Source of the DNA: Hericium rajendrae
Lineage: Eukaryota > Basidiomycota > Agaricomycetes > Russulales > Hericiaceae
Length of the DNA stretch: 64,000 nt
Direction of reading: 5' to 3'
NCBI GenBank assembly: GCA_033439255.1
Contig: CM065891.1
Location: 620,001-684,000, forward strand
The notes under the pieces were generated by a model that worked only from the letters and a program-made list of their open reading frames with translations, did no database searches and was not told where the DNA came from. The number at the start of each line of letters is the position of its first letter. The stretch's first letter is position 1. The position numbers were made by a program, and so were the translations under genes. Shown here piece by piece: positions 40,333 through 55,254 of this stretch.

Positions 40333-41804
40333 CATCTGAAAAATCACAATTTCATATAGCCTAGTGTTGATTTATATGTCCTATCATAGTGCCATGAGGT
40401 CTATCACTATCTATGTAGCCATCTTTCTCACCTATGTAAGGCTATGAGGCCTATCATAGCTTATATAGCAGTAGTTAGACACTATACAGTGCTATATATT
40501 CCTAAGGGGCAGCTATAGCTGCTATATAAACTCACTGGCTTGCTATGGTCCCTATGACCCCTATAGTGAGGTATGGATACTAATATCATTATCTCAAGTC
40601 AACTAGGTACGAAAATTATAGAGTCAAAATCAATTATATTCAATACAATTACTTCCTACTACAATCAAGTACACTACAAAATAATACAGTGCATGCGTGC
40701 ACAGTGGCACGCGGCATGCACAGGTAGAGCCGTGTGCAGGCACGTGCGCGCTGGCAGGGCATGACAAGGGCGCGTATGCGCACGAGGCGCGGCGGGCGCG
40801 CGCGGCGCGATAGTCATGCACACGGCACAGCAGTCGCGCACGAGGCACAGCAGCCCTGTGCCGAAGCGCTGGGCCCGTGCGCGAGGTGCTGGAGGCGCTG
40901 TGGCCGTGTGCACTGGCGTCGGGCTGCGGCGGGCCCGTATGCGAGATGCGGGGTGTGCGCTGAAGACGCAGTGCACGGTGCATCCATGCGCGAAGTATTG
41001 AGGACGTGCGCAAGGCACGGCAGGCGAACGCAAGGCGCCCCATGCCCGCGAGGCGTGTGAGCCCGTGCGTGAAGTGCTGGCTGCCGCTGGCCCATGCGCG
41101 ACGTGCAGCGGGATGTGAGGGGCGGGCATGAGGCGCGGCGGGCATGCGCGGGGCATGAGGCGGCCGCTGGCTCGTGCCCAAGGTGAGGTGAAGGGCGATA
41201 TGGTGCAGTGGGGCGCCGCGGGGCGTGGCGAATGTGCGCTCGGCGTGGCGGGCATGCACAGGACGTGGCGGGCATGCGCGGGACGTGGCGGGTGTGCATG
41301 AGGCAGGCGTGAGTGTAGCCATTTAGCTAAACATATTGGTAGGTGCCACCTGCCACAATGAATAATGGTCGGTGATCCACCATTGGTGACTTGCCATGTA
41401 TTTAGTTAAATGTACATATGTACATTTAGCTAAATGTACATATGTACATTTAGCTAAATGTCCAAGTGCCATTTAACTATATGCATTAGTCTTATCTTGC
41501 CCAAAGACTCATAATCTAATCTGTTCATCACAGCCCTCTTCCGAAACAGAAGATCAAACAAATACTGAAAAGGACAAAAACATGATATTGCATTCAAAAA
41601 TGGAGGTATTCTATGATTTTGTCGGATAGTGCGATAAGATAACAGAGGCAAAATACTACGTCATAAGATGTTCGAGGAAGCATGCAAGATCCAGATAGAA
41701 ACGATCAGGGCAGGAGAGAAATGGAAAGCTCAACAAAATGAACACGAGAATGGCAGAGGCTGTGGAGCAATAGGGACTAAAGACAATAGAGGAATCTACA
41801 CACC

Positions 41805-44800
41805 TCAGCCAAGCCAGAAGTCATCCTCCTCTCGCACCTCAACCTCAACCTCGATCTGAGTTACTGGGGGTGCGTCTAGACCTTCATCCCCGTCATCCCA
41901 CTGGTACGCTGTCCCATCTAGCACAGGCCTTGCCTTGCTTCTCACCGCAGCCCAACGCTCACTGAACTGAGCAGCCAGACAACGATACATTGCCGCTTGC
42001 TCAGCAGCATAGGCATGGAGGCCTTCCTTCAGGGCTAGATTGCCTGGTTCGTCAATGTTGCCTTCTCCATCAAGAGCAGCATCACGCCTGGCTGACCGGT
42101 CTTCCCAAAGTGAGGCCTCCATGGCGAATGTCTCCAGCACACACCTCATCTCCTCTTCTACACGCTGAACTTCTTCATGCCATCGAGCAGCGCACACCTT
42201 CGACTTTGCCCATTCCACGCGAAGAGCTGGAACAAAAGCGTAAGACAATAATGCCACAAGGCAATAGCTGAGACGACTTACCCTCTTGGAGATCTGGATC
42301 TGTCTCATCTGACGTGGTAGGGACAAGCTGCCAGATCCACGACACTGTGGGTGGAGCCTTTTTGCGGCTCGCTCGATTTCCTCTCCCCTGGCTGGCCTGA
42401 CTCCTTTCCATCTGCCTCCCTCGTCGCCCCCTACCTTGGCTCCCCCCCTGCATGCCCTGCGAGTGAGCATCATCATCGCCTTCATCTCCTGGCAAGGCAA
42501 TAACGTCCAATAGATCTTCATTGAGTGACCGAACGTCTTTGTCGTGGAGCTCGCAGAGATCATTCATCCAGGCTCCTCCTCCAGTTAGGCGCATCAAGGC
42601 CCAGTGAGCATGCTGGTACCGAAGCTTGTAAAGCTTCACCTGGTCATCGACCCGGGTTTGCATCTGCCTAGCTCTGGTGTTGGGACGTTGCCCTACTACA
42701 TTCTTGACTTTGAAGGCGTTGAAGAAGGTCCGCATGCGTAGGTGCCGCCGTAGCACCTCCAATGCATCCTGCGCTTCTGCCATTCGCAGCCGAGCCTCGA
42801 CTGCAGCAAGAGCAGGTGGACATGCTGCCTGTCGCGTCTCTGCACTCTCAAAGTCTGATGGCATCTTCAGCTCTGCTTCCTCAGCCTGAGCCTGGTCCAC
42901 AGCCGTTGCCGCACCGTCTTCAGCTTCATTGACACCAGCAGCTTGGGTCCCAGGCATATGAGTGGCCTGCTGCCTGCGAAAACGTCTAATCTTTCTTCTC
43001 AAGGCACGGCGGCGAGCATCAATGTCCGAGAGCTGGAGGGTAGTCGGAGATTTTGTTGCTCGTACTTCACTAAGGAGCATTCTCCTGTAATAAACAATCA
43101 GCGAAAGCAAGGGACCTCATTATAAAAGAACTCACTGAGCATGCTGGATCTCGATGCCCAGCAAAAGGAAAGACGATGGGCTGGTGTCATCCTCTACTTC
43201 TCCAGCAGCGCCCAAGGCAGCCTGCTCCCCGTCCTTGAGCTCCCGCTTTATCTGCGCCAACGTCTTCTCTACGAAAAGGTCAGGACCTGAAATCAGCATA
43301 AAGGAGAGAAGGTGACGCACTGGTGCATGGGGTTGCAAAAGGACTGGGCTTTTTCTTCTTGTCCGCATCCCATGCCGCAAACATTGCCTCCCAGGCATCG
43401 AGATCCTCTGGACGCTTATCGTGGAAGCCGGCCACCATCTGGTTAAATGCGTAACGAAAATCGATTGCATTCGGGATGGCCTCTAGCATCTTGCGAAGAA
43501 GAGATGAGCCTAAAGATGAGTCTTAGACAGTGGGCCAGAAAGAAAAGTTTGTAAAGACATATCCATTCCAACCACACGCCTCCAATTGGAGAACCCACAG
43601 AAGTCATCCAGTGTATCATGCCTGGAGCCAGGTCCCATCTCCTTGGTGCTAGCCGCCGCCCCGTTGAGCCATGCCCAATTCCTCTCTGGGCCCTCCAGCT
43701 CTGAGCGGCCCATCCCAACAGTTCGTCGCGATGAGTACTTGCTATGGCAAGACTCCTCATGGGCCTGCAGGTGGAACTCGGGAACCAAGAAGATCACGTC
43801 GGCCTGAGCCAAGGACTGCTGCATGTCACTAGGGAAGTCACCAATATGAGGCCAGAATTTCTTCTCCCACTGGCAGGCGAGGTCGTAAGAGGAGACCAGC
43901 GTCTTGATGACGACCCCCATAAGCGTGGACAGGAAGATGTAATCCATGTTGATATAGCTGTAGCAAGTCAGCACTAGGTCTGCAGATAAACACAGTGCGA
44001 AGACTAACCGTTCACCTTTCTGCAGATCCCCGATGCCATTTGGCCTCCAGAACTGATGGCGGCCGCAGGTGACCGCGCCCACCCCTGTAGCGGCCAGCCC
44101 TGTTGACCTCTTCAAGTTTGCCGTCGCCAATGCAGCAAATGCAACGCAAGTGCTGATCTGCAGAAGCCACATTAATTCGTGGCTGATAGGGATGGCGTGG
44201 TGCACTCACGTCCTCCTCGCTGGTATGCTCCACCACGTACGTCCCATAACCCTTGCTCTCCACGAAATATGCGAAGCCGCTGCCCAGCGACGGGTCGCGC
44301 TCCTCACTTGTGCGAAGGCGGCTTTTGAGTCTGAAGTTTGCATCCATAGCTAGGACCAGCCAGTACAAAAAGCTACGAAGTTTGCTTCAGACAAAAAACA
44401 TTGATCATGGAGTAGAATCAACTTACACAGTTTCAGGGGGTGCGTCCTGCCAGTTAGACGGCAGGTTAACCCCGGGGCGAGGGCAGGCCAGACACTGAAC
44501 AACGAGCTCTCCTGGCTTTGTCCCCTCAATCCCGCTAGGCTCCAAGCCCCTACCGGCACGCTTCAGCATCTTGATGAACCTCCACTCATGCATCATGAGC
44601 ATGAGCATAGGAAGGCGATCCTACAAGGGCAAAGCCATCAGCATTCGGGCCAAGCGTACAGCAAAGGCCATGGCCCGACGCACCGGTATCTTCAAAAGCC
44701 CAGCAGCATTGGTCAGGAGCTCGAGTGACTTGTAGTAGTCGTACCCCGACATTTTTCCTTGTAGATTCAAGGCATGAAACTGGCGCAGACAGGCCATGGT

Positions 44801-45680
44801 TGCGCACGTTTGCAGCGAACGAGGTGTAGCGGGCCACCAGGCAGTGCGGAGGAGTTGGATTCGGGATGGCATGCTATCAGGGCACCTACAGAAGTCGACC
44901 TTGACGGGGTGGATCCCGTTGGTATGCAGAACGATGAAATCCTTATGAGCGGCCTCGCGAGCAGGACATGGGCCTGCAAAGGCATGCCCCACTTGAACTC
45001 GGAGGCCCAAGTCACAGAGCATAACTTGCTGGAAGCGGCCATGGAGCCATTGCTTAACAAGATAGGCGTGAGGCTGTGGAAGAGAAAAAAGGCAGGACAC
45101 AAGAGGCTCACCTCGGCCACATGCAGCGGGAGTGCATGGTGAACGTTCAGCAAGCAATCCTTGCAGAGAAGCTGCCCTCCGTGACAGTCCCTGCAGAGAA
45201 AGGCAGACCCAATGGCACCACACAGCCCACAAGCGCTCTCTACCCTGAAGTTGGCTTCACAGGCGGCCTCACCCCTCCCATCCAACCTCAGCACCTCATC
45301 CAAGTAATCCGACGCATACTCCCTCCACGTCAAGAGAGGGAGATCCTGTGGGGCCACAAGTCAGATGCCGTCAGGCTCAGCAATTGATGCTGGCTCACTG
45401 AGTTCCTATATCGCTTCGCTGGCACTAACTCGATCCCATCCAGCCCGGGCTCTGCCGATCCTGTGACCTCTGGCACTTCGAAGAACTGTTCCTCAGGCAA
45501 GTCGACGTCGGGGACGGCTTGGCCAGCGTCTGGCGGCGGGGGGATGATCGGTGTTGGTGCGATATGGTCTGTTCTCATGTGAACACGATGACGGCTGTCC
45601 AAGGAGAGGACCTCCGAGATAATAGCAGGCTGATCATGATCATGCATCTCTCGGATGCGTTTCTTGGACTTGTTCTTCAC
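41805..45680 (-). CDS. KDZ transposase
   Basis: Multi-exon; the first exon is 45680-45399 and the second starts at 45345. The N-terminal part has the CxC-type zinc region seen in KDZ proteins (CGLCGAIGSAFLCRDC, LLCKDCLLNVHHALPLH). Core blocks are DLGLRVQVGHAFAGPCP, FIVLHTNGIHPVKVDFC, MLKRAGRGLEPSGIEGTKPG, CPRPGVNLPSNW, AMDANFRLKSR, GSGFAYFVESKGY, INMDYIFLSTL, SYDLACQW and EMGPGSRHDTLDD. The helical C-terminal region (RRKIRRFRRQQATHMPG, TVSWIWQLV, LRVEWAKSKVCAARWHEEVQ) is complete and ends DDFWLG. This matches the RNase H-fold Kyakuja-Dileera-Zisupton transposase. Exons read through the whole family length and I found no stop inside an exon, so it may be active. It presumably acts on the AGTGTAGCC termini. 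Confidence 0.88.
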
Positions 45681-45967
45681 TATTGCAAAGAGCTGACGTG
45701 CGACGAGAAGTGGATAGGGGATGGAAAGCTGAAGACAAGCCTGTAGACTTTAGACAGGATGAGGGGGAGGGGAAGGTGATCGTGGTGTGAGGCGAAAGCG
45801 CTGGCAGTACGCGAGGCGCTGCCTTGACGAGGCGCGTGGGAACTTTTGATAAGCGCGCATCGTGTTCGAAGAGACTTGGTCTAGACCCCACTCTGCAGAG
45901 ACCAGAACATGCAGTTACGAGCCCATGGAGCGAACGTTTTAATACACAAGAAAGGACAGACTAAAAC

Positions 45968-47152
45968 CTAACCTCCAAAAACTTGAAGGCGATCGGAAAC
46001 GAGACTTGTAATAGTTGAGAATAGTGTTAAAGCCCATTGCCACCGTTCTTCGGGCAAGCCATCCATCTCCACCCTTTCCTGATAGGACAACGTGCCCGCC
46101 GGGCGAAACCCATGGCGCGTGTACCGCAGCAACCCTCCAGGACAATATTGAGTAAACGAGAACCGCGTCTCCCCTTCCGCAATGGCAGTATTGGCATGCC
46201 TTATCGAGGAGGACGGAATCTCCGCGCTCGACCCCGGAGGCAAGCTGATGATCAGCCCAAACTCCCAGAGCACGAGTTGGCCCCCCTTCTTATGGTCGAA
46301 GCGTCCAAACGGCGTGATAATGCACCATCCGTGCGGCACGTTGGTGCAGTCGATGTGATCGTGGCAAATGGTGGCGGGGCCAAGGTTAAAGGTCGACGTA
46401 GGGAAGATGCTATTCGGGAAAGGCCATTTAAGGTTGGGGAACTGGTAGCATAGCTTCTCGAAGTTCTCCGCATAGTACGCGTAAACCTTCGGAGCATACA
46501 TTGCAAATATGCCTACCATAACGTTAGCACAGAGGAATCTCTCTGGGATGGACACACTCACTGCTGCCAAAGCCAGCCACGTGCTGAATGGCCCAGTTGT
46601 CCAGAAGCCGGTCGAGTATCCTCTGCATGGGCCCAGTATTCGCGAGGTTTCGTGGCAGCTGAAGCGCGTGAGGGAGCAGGCCGACATGCAGAGAGTAAAC
46701 AGTAGAAGGCGTACCTCAGGACCTCCACCGTACGACGGCCCCGTGTTGAGAGCAAGAAAGTCACCCCGCTGTCAGTCTACAAGCCCTCTAGTAGACCACT
46801 TCCTGCTCTCCCGCTCTGCTCCCTCCAGTGCCACTGTAACCTCCTCCACCACCGCGTCCCAGTCAGCCCCACGTGGCCTGCCTGGAAGAAAAGCCACGAT
46901 GCGACCCTCCGGGTCGCAGAGAGCATGGGGCTGGCTAAGGAGCAGGCGATCGGATGAGTCAGCATGCGCGCACGAAAGACAGGCCTCGACTCACCATCCA
47001 TCCCAGTCCAAGTCCTCAAACCCGAGCGCAATGAGTTCATCATAGGTCCACGGCCTTGCCTTTAATGGCTTTGACCTCACCCCAATGTAGCTCCAGGTAT
47101 CCCTCCTCAAGCAAGCTGTGTTGAAGCTGGTTGGAACAATGACAGCCTTCAT
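45968..47152 (-). CDS. TET/JBP-family 5-methylcytosine dioxygenase
   Basis: Exons on minus: 47152-46995, 46934-~46820, 46768-46715, 46658-46562, 46512-45968. Family blocks appear in order: ELIALGFEDLDWDG, DPEGRIVAFLPGRPRG, RGDFLALNTGPSYGGG, then the double-stranded beta-helix core. Fe(II) ligands are His and Asp in CHDHIDCTN and the distal His in SIRHANTAI; the 2-oxoglutarate Arg is in GETRFSFTQY. Also seen are GWCIITPFGRFD and KKGGQLVLWEFGL. Fungal TET/JBP enzymes oxidise 5mC in DNA to hydroxymethyl-, formyl- and carboxyl-cytosine. The join between exons 2 and 3 is not resolved: either a GTTACA donor near 46820 or an in-frame TGA at about 46772. A Ser-rich open stretch upstream (47803-47242) may be an N-terminal exon. 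The gene starts 288 bp beyond the transposase. Confidence 0.83.
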
Positions 47153-47892
47153 GCTACGATGAGACAGAGAAGACCGGACTTTCGTGGCGCCGTGGCCTGG
47201 CTGCACGACTTTTGAGCGAAGGCGCGCTCATTTCTTGCACCTCCTCTTTGTCTTCGAGTTCGCGCGGTGTTGCTTTACAGGGTCGAATGCAACACTGGGT
47301 TCGATGTCGTCCTCTGATGACTCGGAGCCGCGTTCACGGGCAGTAGGGCTATGGCTGAAGGGTGGGTGGCATGACGGCAAGGGAACCGCTCCAGTCGACA
47401 GTGCCGATGGGGAGCAGTAAGCAGGCGAAGGGCTGCGCGAGGCCTCTGTTAAAGGCGAGGAGCTTCGCGAACCAGCGGTGGGCCACGTCAGTGGGTTGAG
47501 GGGCGAGGAAAACACGCGCTTTCGTGCCGATGAAGACGATGAGCCTGGAGAGAAGGATTGACCCTGTGCGCCGACCGCATCCTGCGGGCCAGCCCGCTGT
47601 TCCCTCTCCTGATCTCCCCCCGAAGCCTCGTCCTGCCTATCCTCCTCTTCAAAGGCTTTCAACAGCCCTACGCTGATGTCGCCCATCCTGTGAGCGACCC
47701 GGAATGGCACGGAGGCTAGGGAGTGATCGAAAGGATTGTAGGTGCGGCCGGAACGAGTGAGCCGCGTGAACACCGGGGCGGAGGCACCCTCCTCCTGCTG
47801 CATATAAAAGAAAATCAGCGTCCGTGGCACGACGAGGCTACGTGTCACATACCATGGGCGCACTCGACGTGTCAGAGTGGAGCTGTCCTGGC

Positions 47893-48290
47893 TACGGCTG
47901 CCCCTAGAGAGAAACGCATGCCTGAGGTCAGATGGTTTGTACAGGAAAAGCAGAAAGAAAAAAGATGTCCCGCGACTCCGCCTTCCAACTGCTGGGCCTT
48001 GGCGAGACCCAACTTGAAGGACGGACAGAGTCTCTGGGACGGGAGATGGAAAGTCGAACCACTCACTGGGAAGCGCTACGCGCGCACGACGTGTCAACCA
48101 GGTGGATTTGTCTTCGAAAGGGCCACCCCTAGATAGAAACGCGTGCGAACGAGGTCAGATCACGTCGAAAAGCAAAACAAAGGGCAGAAGCCGTCCGGCC
48201 GCTCCCCCCATCCAGCTGCTGGGCCTTGGCGAGACCCAACTGGAAGGATGGACGGAGCCACCAAGACAAGAGAAGAAAGGCAAGCTACTC
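47893..48290. repeat. Tandem duplication (~225-bp offset) upstream of the TET/JBP gene
   Basis: The segment from CCCCTAGAGAGAAACGC (47901) through CTGCTGGGCCTTGGCGAGAC (~47991) recurs from 48126 (CCCCTAGATAGAAACGC) through the same phrase at ~48217, and continues to GGACGGAG. Each copy ends close to a minus-strand splice donor (CCCAGTGAGTGG; CTTCGTGAGTAG). The copies could be duplicated 5' exons or promoter units of the TET/JBP gene. Confidence 0.7.
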
Positions 48291-48662
48291 ACGAAGACTA
48301 CTCAACCCAGAGGAAGAGAAAGGAGTGGATAGAACAAAAGACGAGGAAAACGAGAGGAGGAAGAGATGCGAGGTCAAGTTGGCTGCGTCCGAAAGCGGTA
48401 TGTAGGTGAGGCCTCACAATTCATGCCCCGACGAAGCGGAGTCTCAACTTGCACAAGTGGATGAGTAATGCTGATGACACCGCCAAAAAACTCTGGAACA
48501 TATCATTTGCATATTCAGAGTAAGCAACGACCGAGAACGTAAGAAAAGCGACAGAACACATGACAGTACAGATAACAGTGGGATTGTAACGAGACCGGAA
48601 AGTGAAGATAGCAAAGACTCATCCATGCAGTGAGCCGCAGGCTAAATATCATCATCGGTATG

Positions 48663-49884
48663 CTAATTCCGTACGCGCACACAGCCGGCCGCAAGGGCCT
48701 CTGCAAACACCTCTCTAGCAATATAAAGATTCTTGTATTTGCTAAAGTTGTTCAGCGACACGCCGCAAACCTGCTTCAACGTTGACCAATACGAAGAATA
48801 TAGCCCTGGCTTCTTTCCCTGGAAGACAGCATAGATGGGGCCTACATGGTCATCCGGCAAATCATGAAACTGCAAAGCAGGCCCTGCATCAGGACTGTGC
48901 TGAGGACTTAGCGCGACGCCGTCACCTTCGTCGTTGTCGACATCACTATGGGTCGAGCCAGGAGCGGCAGGGACCCACGGTGCGATAGCAGGACGGCATT
49001 CAAATGAACCTTCCTTGCAGAAGTGCGTCAGACCACGCTCCGAGTGAGCACGGTACGCCGCCCACGCGTCGCAGCAGTCATGGAAGCCACTGTAGAGCGG
49101 CTGTGCGCATCCACGAACCTGCTCCTCTGCGCGTGCCCTGTGTACAGGAATGAGCCCCTGGCCACTCGAGAAGGATAAAACTTACAAATTGTAGTATACC
49201 CCGGGGCAATAGCCCCTAAAGACAACCCAAGCGTTAATCCATGACCCGCCTTCGTAACCCATTCCATCGCCAGAATCTTCTGCATTATGGCGTAGCACGT
49301 GAAGGCACCATGCCCGCCCAGCCTTCTGACCCTTGCTACTCCTCGCACGGAAGGCATAGGCCAATCCTCGCGGGACGCCTTGGCTCACCACGCCAGCCTC
49401 CCACCTACAGGACAAAACTTCACGATAAAACTCTACTCCTAGACTACTACTGCTTACCACTGTGAAAAGAATCCTGTATGTTTGCCCGACACTACATGAT
49501 AATGATGGCCGTTCATAGCGATGTTGTCTGGAACGTTTTCAGTAGCACTCAATAGGCGAACGATGAGCATGCGCACCGTCCGACTCGACGTCGTTTGCAG
49601 ACCAACTGCTAGGGAAAGGGGCAGACAAACTAGCAGAGGTTGGTGATGAGGCGCGACCAGCGGGGATGTCTGCATGGCCAGCCTCACAGTAAGAACACGA
49701 CGCGCCAGCCATAGGCAGAACACTTACACGCCTTTCCTTCCGCGTCAATCTCAACCTCGCCCATAAGCCTGACCAGCTCCGGGTCCGTCGCATAAGACGA
49801 CGTTGGCGTCTGGCGCGACGACAAAGGTGTAGCATACGACGATGGGCTCTCAGACGGTGGAGGAACACACAGCGGCGAGAGCAT
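48663..49884 (-). CDS. Protein with RNase H1 hybrid-binding (viroplasmin-like) modules
   Basis: ATG at 49884 opens a Ser/Pro/Thr-rich start (MLSPLCVPPPSESPSSY). A first module reads HYHVVSGKHTGFFSQW, then after an intron WEAGVVSQGVPRGLAYAF. The last exon (48875-48663) has a second: PIYAVFQGKKPGLYSSYWST, GVSLNNFSKYKNLYIAREVF, AEALAAG. The pattern Y-x-V-x2-G-x2-x-G-hydrophobic-S-x-W ... V-x-G-V ... F-x-x-F is that of the RNase H1 N-terminal domain (Cauli_VI fold), which binds RNA:DNA hybrids. A TATATAAA box on minus (RC of 49960-49967) lies ~75 bp upstream. The middle exons (49580-48880) could not be joined with certainty, and one reading has a frame break after SPIEC. A role in transposition is only inferred from position. 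Confidence 0.55.
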
Positions 49885-50226
49885 CCCCGCCGAGCACGAG
49901 AGATAGAGGCGAGTAAAAGAGGGAAAAGGGGAGTGAGGATTACGGAGGAGCTGAGGGGGTTTATATAGGCTGGGGGGCGTCAGCCACAGCGAAGGAAGCG
50001 AAGGAAGTCGAACCGCAGAGCAGCGCACGCTGAACGTGCCAGAGGGCCTCTACACGCTCGAGAACGCGAGCCTGAACGCGGTTTGTTTTGATCACGTGCA
50101 TATAGTTGAAGTTCGGCTACGTCGGCTAAAGATCGGGACCAGCCGGAACTGGGTGTGAGTCGGTGTTTGTACTCCTTTGTTCACTCCCTATTCGTCTCCC
50201 ACCTGATTGACGCCGCAGATAGCCCG

Positions 50227-53200
50227 ATGGCTGGCAAGACGCTCGCAGGCAAATTGCGCGTTCGCAAGTCGCACCTTGCTGGTCTAGGGAAGCCTCGCGG
50301 CCGCAAGGCCTTCCTACGCGGCCACTGAGTCGAGTTCTGCCAGCGACACGTATCAGCCTGGCGAGACGCCACTGCCGCCGATCCTCCCACGACAGGCACA
50401 TTTTATGACAAGACCACAAATAGTTATCTGCAAGAAATCGGGTACGATTTTGACGTCAACGCAGAGGGCAGAATCATTCCTTTACCCGATGACGTGGACG
50501 AGGACGAGGGTGCCGAGGGCTTTGCAGGCGAGGATGGGCCAGTAGGGGACCAGACCGCGGCTCAGGCAGCTCACGCGGAGGCGGTCGCTCAGAAGAAGAG
50601 CGTCAAGCGGAAGGCTCTTCGAACGGTGCGCCTCTTTTTCGTTTATCTTCGCTTACTCTGACTTGCCTGCTTGATAGGCTCTTTCCCATTGGTTCCGCAA
50701 TAACAGCAATGGCTCCGGGAGCAAAAAACCTCGCGATGGAATGAGCAAGAAGTTCGACGCCATGGTCGACATGGCTCCTGAGAAGCCTCGCCGTGCCCAT
50801 GCCGATCAGTTTTTCTCCACGAAGCACTACGACATCATGGTCAAAGACTGCTTCGACGCCCATTTCCGCACTGTCGCTTCGGCATGGGCAGCTGCCCAGG
50901 CCATTCCTCAATAGCTGGGCATGGAAGGCTCGCCTTCAGAAGATCAGCTGGCCTTGCTTGCCGGCGTGACGTTCGAAGGCGACGATCTCTTCCAGGACGT
51001 CTATGACAACTGGCATCAGAGTTTTGCGAAGAAAGGTGGCAAGCTGGTTGAAGTCACGCTGCGGGCTGCTTTCACCCGCGCGGTGTACCATTTGCAGTCG
51101 GACGAGTTCAAGGAGAGCCTCAAGCAGGAGTTAGACAGCATTTATGACAAGGCCATGGACACGTATCGCCAACTCTTGGATGCTGCTGACACGGAGAAGA
51201 CGCCGGAGTACTACCATGAGTACGTACAGTTGCTCCTCATGGTGATTTGTAGGCTGATTCACGTCATGCAGGATGCAGTCTAAGGCCCCTCATTATCTGT
51301 ATCCATTTGCCGAGCACATGTCGAAGAGGCTCGGCATGAACGTTTCGATAATGGTGTACGGCCCAATCTCAGTGCGAGGGGGAGCGATCAGTGTGAAGAG
51401 GTGCGTCTTTCCCATTGTGCTGCCATGTATCAATCTAACGGTATACACAGTATTCACGTTGGAACCACAAACGACCCTGCAAGCTTGGAATGGATGGACG
51501 CCGAGCCGGAGGCCTGCGAGGCGATGGTGAAGTCCATGCGCGCATTCGGGGAGCGATGTTTTAGTGAGTAACATGTGCCTGTTCTGTGGCCTATGTACTG
51601 ATGGACCCGCCTACGTAGCCCCGGAGGAGCATGCAGCGCGCGCTCTTCCAAACGTCGCGACGAGCTCTAGCGTTGATCCGCCAACAGACGAGGGGCCGCC
51701 AAGGTCGACGGAGGCGATGGGCGAGCAGCAGGATGCTGCTTTTTTACGTGGCACTGCTCCGCCTGAAGTCTCACCTTGTGCTAGCCGGTCTCCATCTCTT
51801 ATCGGTGGGCCAACTCACATGCGAACGCTGGAGGCTGATGGGACACCATCAGTACTCTCCCCTCGTGAAGGCCGTTCTTATCCTTCACGTGGCTCAGAGT
51901 CGCCAGATCGCACGCTCGCCCCTCCTTTCATGCCGTCGAGTCCCACTCCACCGCGCACGCCTGCCGCTCCCTTGCAGGCAGCGCCCAAACAGTCCGCCGT
52001 CCTGTCGAAGCAAGCTCATGGTCCAGCCAAGACCCCGTTGTTCCTGCCTAGCTCCAGCCCCGCTTCTGCCCAACTGAGCCATCATCCTTCCCAGAACACT
52101 AGTCTGCATCGCGGTCCACCGCCGCCGCTGCCCTCCTCCATCCCACGTCCCTCTCGGACTGCTTCACAGCCTGCATCCCGCATGGCACGATCTGTCAACG
52201 TGCCGTCCAGGCGGTTTATATCTGCACCCACACCTGGTTTCATTACGCAAATTGATCACCCTGCAGCGAGCAGGAAAGTGTCCATTGACCCTCGCCTTGA
52301 GGCGCAGTCGGCATCTGGAGTGGAACATCGTGAACGCGAGGAATCAGATGGCCTACACACCCCACCCTTGTCACCCCTCATACCCGAGGACGAGCCGCTC
52401 ATCACGCCGAGTTTCTCAAATATGCCAGCGAATCGGATGCTGCAGCCATACTTGCGAAGGCCGTTCCCCTCGCAGCGCAGTGGGATGTCGAGGGAGCTCG
52501 ACGAACTCTCATTCAGCTTGCTGGAGGACAAGCGGGAGATGGAATGGAATGCAATGCGTAGCACCCATGTGCAGGATCGAGAGCGTAACAAATCCGACAG
52601 TCCATTCATGGCCGTCGACACTATCCCGAAGACGCCCGCTCGGCCTCCAAGACGTCAAGCACCCATTCGACACAAGCCCTCTCATCCATTGTCACCACTC
52701 TTTTCTCCTGGATTGCCTCCGTTTACTCAGCACTTTGCTGAAGCCTCTTCTTCTCCTGTGCCTTCGCAAAGAGCCAAACTGCCTTCCACAAGGCCTCCTC
52801 CCAGCTCATCTTGGCCACCAAGTCAGCCGCCTCCCAATGCGCTGCAAACCATGGAAGAGATGGCAAGGCGTCGTCGATCAGCTGCATCTGTCATGGGTCC
52901 TGCAAGAAGCTTGGTGGCTGCCACAACAACTTCCGTAGTGAGGGCTGAGAAGGACACCTCACGCTGGCCAGACAAGATGCATGAGTTGTACAAATTTTTG
53001 ACCAATGGCAAGGACTGGGGTGAGGGCTGGATTGCTTGTGTCACAGAGTGGGTCGAGGTCGAGGGTATGGATGGATTTCCGGTAAGTCGGCGTTACTTGA
53101 ATGGGAGGTAGCACTATAGCTAACCGTCCAACAGGTTGATGTTAAGTCCAATCCCAATGTTGGTGCGTTTTCTGCTACCACCCGCCCCGAGCCTGTTGGC

Positions 53201-53669
53201 AGGTGGATTGCGTACAAGAGAACTGCCAAGGATCGACCAATCGGAAGTCTCATGGCGTACTCGAGTGCATGGTGGGCTTGGTGGGGAGACTGCCAGCCTG
53301 AAGAGCATGGCGTTGACCAGAAGGGTAGGCCAGGTCCTCCAGCAGCGGACTTGGACTGGTCCTGCATGGATGTCACTACCAGTTGCGGCCTGGTGCTTAT
53401 TATCGTCAGCTTATCTTTCTGGGGTGCTGAGGTCTTCAAGGCTGGAGGTGTGAGTTCGCGACAGGCGCAGGAGTGGCACGATGCTGTTGCTCAGGCCACT
53501 CTGGCCTTCACCTCTATTCGTAGGTGGAAAATGGACAGTGAGGGTGACTCTGCAAAGCGAAAGAGGTTCATACCATGCTTTTCATTGGCTTGTCGGTGCA
53601 CTAAAGTGAACAATCAGCATCCCACTCCCCTCTGGCTCGACCAGACCCAAGAAGCGCCGCAGGAATTAA
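50227..53669 (+). pseudogene. KDZ-linked accessory gene with two in-frame stops
   Basis: Exons 50227-50625, 50678-51219, 51272-51400, 51451-51563, 51619-53081, 53135-53565 and 53618-53669 close in phase (1043 codons). The product starts MAGKTLAGKLRVRKSH. It contains YDKTTNSYLQEIGYDFDV, a basic ALSHWFRNNSNGSG region, SKRLGMNVSIMVYGP...GGAISVKSIHVGTTND, EEHAARALPN, a Pro/Ser-rich middle and an RWIAYKRTAKDRPIG...WWAWWGDCQP domain, and ends in an NLS-like RPKKRRRN. This architecture is common next to mushroom KDZ transposases; the function is unknown. TGA (50326-50328) and TAG (50912-50914) interrupt an otherwise clean frame. Either the gene is newly dead or translation restarts at ATG 50921. A short divergent promoter (49885-50226) is shared with the hybrid-binding gene. 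Confidence 0.72.
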
Positions 53670-54411
53670 TTCTCGTACGCAGCCCTCTGCGTCTTCGCGC
53701 GCCTCTCATGCAATTGTTCAAATGTCGACCATATTTATTTCCTTCCGCTTTCAACACATTCATTTCATGCCTCTTGTTTTCCCTTCACGATGCTCCCACC
53801 TGACACTTTACGACATTTTCTGTCTGACGACAATCCACAACGCTCCACAACGCTCGACGAAGGTCCTACAGCTCAAATCTCAACGCCTAATATCGCATCT
53901 ATATCATATGTATTCCATCTTACGTCGCATTGCATTGTCTTATACCCTCGCATCGTACAGCTTTCTGCCATACTGTCTTCATAACTCTCTTACTCTCCAG
54001 CATTATATGCTCACTGCATAGTCCATACTGTAGCATTATTCTCTATCTCATCGCCTCCCCTTGTTTATTTCTACTCATGCATACTAATCTCTGCTCTAGG
54101 TGTTTTCCTCTTTGAGGCCCTATGATCTCGCCTCAATCTGCGAAACAGTGCTTCTACTTGGTCCGATTCAACTCACAATGCCTGGTACATGCTTTATGCT
54201 TCCACAGCGTCACGAAGATATATCGACATATTCCCTGATTCACCACATCCTCACCTATTCTCCCTGCTTTTACACAGTCTTGCTTTTTAATGGACAGCTA
54301 TACTTGGTACCTTATGTTGAGATCTTGCATCATTATAATGTCAGTGACCTTTTGCTTCTCACTCTGCATGTCTTCGCTGGGGTTTGCAGGCAGGTTCAAA
54401 AGGTGTGTGTT

Positions 54412-54480
54412 ATGTTTTTTGTGCAACATATGTTTTTCGCACAACATATGTTTTTCACACGACGTATGTTTTTTGCACGA
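54412..54480. repeat. 18-bp tandem repeat near the right end of the KDZ element
   Basis: Four units of about 18 bp (CATATGTTTTTCGCACAA and variants). It lies just inside the right-end cluster of CATTTAGCTAAATG palindromes and has no counterpart at the left end. A binding-site array is possible. Confidence 0.85.
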
Positions 54481-55254
54481 TTAGATTTGATAAGATTAAG
54501 GCTTTCGAACCTGAGAGATAAGTTGAGTGCATTTAGCTAAATGTGTAGAGGCAGGCATTTAGCTAAATTTGTGAAGACTTGCCAATTGTAGGCTGCCGAT
54601 GATTTTTCATTGTGACAGGTGGTAGGTACTGTACCATTAGTTAAATGGCTACACTTAGTGGTGCATGAGGCGTGGCGGGCGTGCATGAGGCGTGACGGGC
54701 GGATGCGAGGCGTGATGGGCGCGAGCAGGGTGCTGGCTTGTGCACGAGGTGCGGCGGGGAGCAGCAGGATACGGCGAGGCAGCGGGCCCGCGCATGGCCA
54801 CGCACGATGTGTGCGCGTGCGTGTGCTGGCTGGCACGCCCGCGCGAGGCTGCAGCCGTCAGCCTGCTGTACGTACGCTGACGGGGCTGCACGCAGCACAG
54901 CCGGGTTGCGCGCAACCCGTGGGCTCGTGCACGAGACGGGCCACGCACAGCACGCCTGGCCCGTGCGCCACGCAGCAGCACCGTGCGCTGGATCACGAGG
55001 CCGTGCGCGAGGGATACAGCCCGTGCGCGAGGCAACGGGCAGGCGTGGGCATTATCCGGCGAGGTGCATGCGCTGGCGCACGCGGACGTGGGCGTTGGGA
55101 GACAGCACGCCAGCCACTGCGGGTGTGACGGCGATGTTGAGCGATGGGGAGGCGACGGCGAGGCGACGGGAGGAGACGGCGGGAGGAGACGGCGGGAGGC
55201 GACGGTGAGGCGACAGCGGGAGGGGGCAGGGAGAGGCGCGGGAGAGAGCAGGTC

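Follow-up and report, generated by a model that had tools for sequence, protein, structure and literature searches.

A four-gene KDZ transposon of Hericium rajendrae with a divergent TET/JBP-like dioxygenase and a hybrid-binding-type protein

KDZ transposons that carry TET/JBP genes are already known: the TET+ Kyakuja elements of Agaricomycetes have CA..TG ends and 7-bp target duplications (Kojima 2025, PMC12730594), and a lack of terminal inverted repeats is a mark of the Kyakuja subgroup. The TET/JBP proteins that this account describes from mushroom transposons are either CcTet-like enzymes (AG type) or enzymes with an HxE motif (PE type; PMC12730594). TET/JBP enzymes oxidise 5-methylcytosine (5mC), and oxidised 5mC is reported around transposons in Coprinopsis and Laccaria (PMC12730594, PMC8889193). 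Here we analyse a window of 64,000 nucleotides of the Hericium rajendrae genome (C14:620001-684000; contig CM065891.1), in which a KDZ element of 13,360 bp occupies positions 41304–54663. Sequence comparison supports an element that holds, between one pair of ends, genes for a KDZ transposase, a TET/JBP-like enzyme, a hybrid-binding-type protein with Cauli_VI modules and an accessory protein. With a probability of roughly 60%, we read it as a copy of a four-gene class II KDZ transposon, whose cassette is recurrent and whose dioxygenase would oxidise 5mC in the element and thereby delay silencing.

In its linkage of a KDZ transposase to a TET/JBP gene, its 5'-CA..TG-3' ends and its 7-bp duplications, the window element resembles TET+ Kyakuja as described in PMC12730594. 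It differs in its dioxygenase, which is not of the AG type (it shows neither the Gly331/Asp337 pattern nor a Tet_JBP match), in its transposase, which is separate from the AG-linked transposases sampled in this genome, and in possessing subterminal inverted repeats and two more cassette genes. All comparisons were made within this single genome (46.8 Mb in 19 contigs), and gene models were predicted from open frames, splice signals and comparison of copies. Neighbourhood counts are taken over 9 kb and use listed KDZ matches, which are a subset of the 172 found genome-wide.

The borders of the element were defined by comparing its four full copies. The first-pass annotation had placed inverted termini at 41312..54655; the 13-mer AGTGTAGCCATTT is indeed exact at 41312–41324 (+ strand) and 54643–54655 (− strand), but the true ends lie 8 bp further out on each side. 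Eight extra bases beyond the 13-mer are common to all four copies on both sides, and the element therefore spans 41304–54663 and reads 5'-CAGGCGTG ... TAGTGGTG-3'. Its ends have the form CA..TG (CA..AGTGTAGCC), and the inverted repeats begin 9 bp inside them, with a left arm of 19 nt at 41312–41330 (+) that is 95% complementary to the right arm at 54637–54655 (−). The element is flanked by a 7-bp target-site duplication, CATGAGG, at 41297–41303 and 54664–54670 (both +). Taken alone, the 13-mer is weak; two window matches with 2 mismatches are not unusual (35 of 100 shuffles). Proof lies in the extension of the arms to 19 nt and in the genomic distribution of AGTGTAGCCATTT, which occurs exactly 12 times genome-wide, eight of these occurrences making up four facing pairs about 13.3 kb apart. 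Chance termini are ruled out by the further copies and the target duplications. Short subterminal repeats of the ATTTAGCTAAAT type (family D4) are found near both ends, four on the left (41319, 41398, 41422 and 41446, spanning 41319–41463) and two on the right (54529 and 54555, spanning 54529–54572); those on the left are putative transposase-binding sites.

Besides the window element, the full copies are C14b (C14:698742-712058), C6a (C6:2984953-2998314) and C6b (C6:3022114-3035474). The window element and C14b are 98.5% identical end to end, C6a and C6b 99.4%, and identity between the two pairs is about 91%. Among eight elements whose two ends could be compared, six have exact 7-bp duplications: the window element (CATGAGG), C14b (GATTTCT), the divergent elements E8 (GGTTAGT) and E12 (GCAAGAC), and the short elements S15 (CAAGTAC) and S18 (CATCCGG). 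The duplication of C6b matches in six of seven bases, and C6a has none. C14b is inserted in the transposase gene of another KDZ element, and its empty site, with the insert and one duplication copy removed, reads TLDDFCGFSNWRRVVGM, which is the conserved KDZ motif. A single duplicated block bearing two copies was considered and rejected, as the flanks (1,000 bp for the C14 copies, 144–178 bp for the C6 copies) do not match one another; the sole similarity among them is a weak repeat between the left and right flanks of the window element (winL–winR). The near-identical copies are paired locally, with about 37 kb between the members of each pair (C14:661312/698742 and C6:2984953/3022114) and different target sites, an arrangement that looks like transposition to linked sites. 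Two short elements, L015 (C4:292013-296902, 4.9 kb) and L018 (C12:1521114-1525584, 4.5 kb), have the same ends and exact 7-bp duplications; neither gave a match to the protein queries of the element, and both are likely non-autonomous derivatives.

Three of the four genes lie on the − strand. The transposase gene (41805–45665) consists of 11 exon pieces (41808–45665) followed by a stop codon at 41805–41807, and none of the pieces contains a stop, in keeping with its earlier description as complete-looking. It encodes a CxC2 cluster (44684–45073; Pfam CxC2, 6.3e-41) and a KDZ domain (43510–44202; PF18758, 4.9e-46), and carries the motifs MDANF.., YDLACQW and GPERNWAWLN, which we take to be the D, D and E catalytic motifs of KDZ transposases. 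The TET/JBP-like 2-oxoglutarate (2OG) dioxygenase gene (45968–47803) comprises exons 46995–47803, 46715–46934, 46562–46658 and 45968–46512; its start codon and first exon are not fixed, and in-frame stops occur at 47228–47230 and 46772–46774. The hybrid-binding-type gene (48663–49884), related to the N-terminal domain of RNase H1 and to caulimovirus viroplasmin, is made up of pieces 49729–49884, 49460–49606, 49188–49403 and 48666–49139, all without a stop. The accessory gene (50227–53803, + strand) is transcribed divergently; its exons are 50227–50625, 50678–51219, 51272–51400, 51451–51563, 51619–53081 and 53135 to about 53803, the 3' end not being fixed. The accessory gene was likewise recognised correctly in the first-pass annotation and is common to other elements, its window copy having two in-frame stops. 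Scans of the window with Rfam and for tRNAs (ARAGORN, bacterial code) gave no matches.

Every copy is damaged in at least one gene. Stops interrupt the transposase and dioxygenase genes in both C6b and C14b, and in C14b also the accessory gene; in C6a, the frames of the accessory and transposase genes are broken. By its predicted gene models, the window copy is a decayed relic, its dioxygenase and accessory genes being unable to yield intact proteins. The ratio of nonsynonymous to synonymous divergence (dN/dS), compared between pairs without a significance test and counting only codons uniform within each copy pair, is 0.09 for the transposase, 0.58 and 0.09 for the N-terminal and catalytic parts of the dioxygenase, and 0.31 for the Cauli_VI gene (single pieces 0.23–0.65); in the accessory protein it is 0.16 for the N-terminal part, 0.45 for the linker and 0.14 for the C-terminal part. 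The ratio is below 1 in all four genes, and on the simplest reading all four were kept before the copies inserted. Synonymous divergence between the pairs differs along the element, from 0.14 in the transposase to 0.31 in the catalytic part of the dioxygenase, perhaps through recombination between element families.

The cassette recurs well beyond these copies. Dioxygenases of the window type occur at 58 places in the genome, and all 17 with at least 60% identity (the four copies and 13 further places) have a listed KDZ match no more than 9 kb away, against only 4.7% of the genome. Nine of the 13, with dioxygenases 63–73% identical, were analysed in full as divergent elements by tblastn with proteins of a sibling copy. 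In all nine, the KDZ, dioxygenase and Cauli_VI genes stand in the order and orientation of the window, and the N-terminal part of the accessory gene is present in eight; E14 has no accessory match within the 18 kb examined, and the C-terminal part has no match in E7, E13 and E14. Both ends with exact duplications were shown for E8 (C3:2494442-2510808) and E12 (C16:67550-81925), both ends of the other seven not being established. The remaining four places stood outside the full cassette test: KDZ, Cauli_VI and accessory matches lie near C10:1974364, and KDZ and Cauli_VI matches near C8:2469554; the other two are C7:2278308 and C7:2740300. A more distant group (46% identity; C3:3257427 and C4:955312) is also near KDZ, Cauli_VI and accessory matches. 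Relatives of the N- and C-terminal parts of the accessory protein are found elsewhere in the genome. The co-occurrence of all four genes between one pair of termini, on which the first-pass annotation had staked its claim, is borne out by the four copies and by divergent elements of this genome.

Could the cargo genes be mere passengers, captured by chance or sitting in nested elements, with no role in the transposon? Nested insertion does occur, as C14b shows, and 32 of the 58 window-type dioxygenase places are away from listed KDZ matches. Against this, gene order and orientation are constant in the divergent elements examined, the ends and target duplications lie outside the genes in two of them, and dN/dS is below 1 in every gene. 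On the dN/dS ratios and the constant cassette in divergent elements we reject passenger genes, an account that is strongly disfavoured and to which we give scarcely any weight. The enzyme family as such is not confined to transposons, because of those same 32 places without a listed KDZ match within 9 kb; examples are C3:569417, C14:957364 and C13:1762439, and some of these may belong to the host or be carried by other elements.

The relationship of the dioxygenase to TET/JBP enzymes is distant. The first-pass annotation had called it a TET/JBP dioxygenase with H-x-D, distal His and 2OG-binding Arg; these residues are present, encoded in exon 45968–46512, but the gene has the two stops given above, and Pfam gives nothing for its protein at E up to 1. 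The genome contains 46 Tet_JBP matches, all of them outside the four copies. Thus the Tet_JBP profile, proposed earlier as a check, does not recognise the window protein, an outcome that by the refuting condition of the first-pass annotation counts against its reading of this protein; kinship appears in its relatives and in profile comparison. An alignment of window-type dioxygenases, A1, includes 20 of the 58 places; three of 23 candidates were left out, one running across two loci, one with stops, and C14b, which is near-identical to the window copy. Both Fe-binding His residues are invariant in all 20, and the Asp and Arg are at least 90% conserved. At E up to 1, Tet_JBP matches nine of the 20 members (best 3.4e-5) and the generic profile 2OG-FeII_Oxy_3 matches eight (best 0.0023). 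A second alignment, A2, of the CcTet-type family holds seven of eight extracted Tet_JBP places (L046, a weak match of a different family, was omitted), and its profile matches CcTet (7vpn) at 2.2e-26. In hhalign, the window-type family profile aligns with A2 at 94.0% over 110 columns, with H-x-D and distal His paired; the best of 100 column-shuffled profiles reaches 9.5%, and reversing the profile gives 1.0%. The same family profile finds nothing in the Protein Data Bank (PDB) at E up to 10. Because homology is recovered only through relatives and profile comparison, the dioxygenase is, on this sequence evidence, a divergent class and not the TET described from Kyakuja.

Two further positions bear on its substrate. 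An Asn three residues after the Asp and a Cys nine after it are both invariant in the 20 members; the Asn position is G or S in the CcTet-like family, and the Cys position corresponds to CcTet Asp337. According to PMC11040006, CcTet Gly331 is equivalent to Asn1387 of hTet2, Asp234 of NgTet1 and Asp350 of CMD1, residues that form a bond to N4 of 5mC and exclude N6-methyladenine (6mA), and Asp337 compensates in CcTet. As the invariant Asn corresponds to hTet2 Asn1387, the window class resembles conventional TETs at the place of 5mC contact, and we infer a conventional, hTet2-like pocket for 5mC and not a CcTet pocket. Like CcTet of Coprinopsis cinerea (7vpn, 7w5p; PMC11040006), the class has the H-x-D motif, the distal His, the Arg and, six positions beyond this Arg, an aromatic residue: here a Tyr, at least 90% conserved, with the spacing of Arg385–Phe391 in CcTet. 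It differs in its Asn at Gly331 and Cys at Asp337, and shows no direct sequence match. With the PE-type TET/JBPs of Agaricus bisporus transposons it shares a large distance from known TETs and residence in mushroom DNA transposons, but the PE motif is HxE (Kojima 2025, PMC12730594) and that of the window class HxD.

The enzyme could instead be a TET/JBP relative acting on another substrate (6mA, thymine, RNA or protein), and the cargo would then not serve 5mC removal. The distant similarity to proven TETs, with the Pfam and PDB searches just described, the matches of eight members to the generic 2OG-FeII_Oxy_3 profile and the invariant Cys at the Asp337 position all speak for this alternative. 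The matches of nine members to Tet_JBP, the alignment of H-x-D and distal His with the CcTet-like family, and the Asn that the class shares with hTet2 (PMC11040006) where 5mC is contacted speak against it, and we consider it rather unlikely.

The KDZ transposases were compared in a tree of 30 core sequences, which covers about 130 residues and only sequences sampled in this genome. Nine AG-linked sequences form one clade (support 1.000), and ten close window-type sequences stand apart from it (split 0.778). The KDZ sequences L068–L071, which lie beside more distant window-type dioxygenases, are not among these ten, and one of the four joins the AG clade with weak support (0.713); the window-type dioxygenase class is therefore not bound to a single KDZ lineage. 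A bolder proposal is that a separate KDZ lineage carries a further class of 5mC dioxygenase with a conventional pocket, beyond the AG, PU and PE types and guided by hybrids to transcribed copies, so that one fungus would host two anti-silencing strategies in two sets of KDZ elements. We find this version doubtful; the class comparison on which it draws was made by residue pattern with the AG and PE types. In the literature searched, no description of the window dioxygenase class was found, the founding paper, Iyer 2014, lying outside the search.

Identification of the third gene as viroplasmin/RNase-H1-like, made already in the first-pass annotation, stands on Cauli_VI (PF01693) matches above the Pfam cut-off, at 4e-8 in a window exon and at 2.9e-12, over two stretches, in the spliced protein of a sibling copy; a third, weaker stretch is visible by eye only. 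The module is that of the RNase H1 N-terminus and caulimovirus viroplasmin. Unlike RNase H1, the protein is transposon cargo and has no matched catalytic domain: the RNase H domain was not matched at E up to 1 in the sibling copy's protein, and the gene ends after the last module. A search of NCBIfam gave a weak RNase H match and two unrelated weak matches, and the hybrid-binding protein of a relative had no match in the PDB at E up to 1. No paper joining KDZ elements with Cauli_VI/viroplasmin or RNase H1 N-terminal proteins was found, a result that does not exclude prior mention in Iyer 2014, Chavez 2014 or supplements.

We infer that the Cauli_VI protein may sense RNA:DNA hybrids. In the mechanism that we favour, the host would methylate CpGs of the element, and the dioxygenase would oxidise 5mC at these CpGs, delaying silencing; the hybrid-binding protein might hold RNA:DNA hybrids formed during transcription of the element and so mark or protect active copies. 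More speculatively, its modules could bring the dioxygenase, or the transposase, to transcribed copies. A different possibility is that the hybrid-binding and accessory proteins belong to the transposition machinery, binding DNA or the transpososome, and have nothing to do with silencing or R-loops. Four Cauli_VI genes lie beside KDZ transposases of a different lineage with no window-type dioxygenase nearby (C14:744091, C2:2826247, C1:354802 and C6:2340011), which would suit such a role, as would the accessory protein, which has no Pfam domain above the cut-off. It is at odds with the surroundings of the Tet_JBP genes: of the 46 matches, 36 are within 9 kb of a listed KDZ match, and at the same distance these 36 show no Cauli_VI match and a single accessory match, itself part of the neighbouring element E8. 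Cauli_VI and accessory genes are thus not linked to every KDZ element. We hold a role in transposition alone to be possible, with odds clearly below even. Weak Tet_JBP matches (about 30 bits) also mark a small repeated family (C2:33965, C2:3866436, C4:1122998, C9:549710 and C4:348987) that has no listed KDZ match within 9 kb.

The four copies also keep a record of mutation at CpG. Private changes, defined as unique to one of the four copies and polarised by the other pair, number 100, 82, 36 and 36 (254 in total); C-to-T changes account for 81, 73, 28 and 31 of them, of which 70, 62, 26 and 30 are at CpG (188 of the 254), and CpG makes up 22% of cytosine sites. Repeat-induced point mutation at CpA is ruled out, with 13 of 213 C-to-T changes, and so is TCG hypermutation of the Pucciniomycotina type, since mutated over background sites are 62/377 for ACG, 54/463 for GCG, 37/310 for CCG and 35/430 for TCG. 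The ratio of observed to expected CpG is 0.80 for the element, compared with 1.00 for the remainder of the window; C14b likewise gives 0.80, and C6a and the divergent-element region L032 each give 0.85. Four CcTet-type copies were compared over 1.8 kb, a small sample with 14 majority-polarised singletons; 13 of these are C-to-T, and 12 of the 13 fall at CpG. The genome has matches to the C5-methyltransferase family, the best at 8.4e-10. This record suggests that the four copies were heavily CpG-methylated after insertion, and any escape from silencing was therefore incomplete. Read most simply, both types of KDZ copy become CpG-methylated and decay by deamination, with or without cargo, and the record suggests that escape, if any, is temporary.

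Escape from silencing through editing of cytosine methylation by the element is a hypothesis, and several observations weigh against it. Protection is unseen in the mutation record, because CpG deamination struck the copies despite their cargo, and the CcTet-type elements likewise. CpG depletion is not general, the ratio being 0.97, 0.96 and 1.03 in regions of three divergent elements, L019, L021 and L025. Against our reading of the element as a whole stand also the lack of a Pfam match for the window dioxygenase, the lack of a PDB match for its family profile, and the 32 window-type places with no listed KDZ match within 9 kb, which are 32 of the 41 below 60% identity. Finally, two of the 17 closest places, C7:2278308 and C7:2740300, have a KDZ match 6.3–6.6 kb off and no Cauli_VI or accessory match nearby.

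Selfish DNA that may be fighting DNA methylation has a prime natural example in transposons with TET/JBP genes. The window element brings another pairing of KDZ transposase and dioxygenase to a genome that also has the AG pairing, and its residue pattern would predict a different substrate range, 5mC only as against 5mC plus 6mA. The dioxygenase is accompanied by a recurrent partner gene with modules of the type that binds RNA:DNA hybrids. The CpG mutation record of such copies offers a direct measure of how well escape from silencing works.

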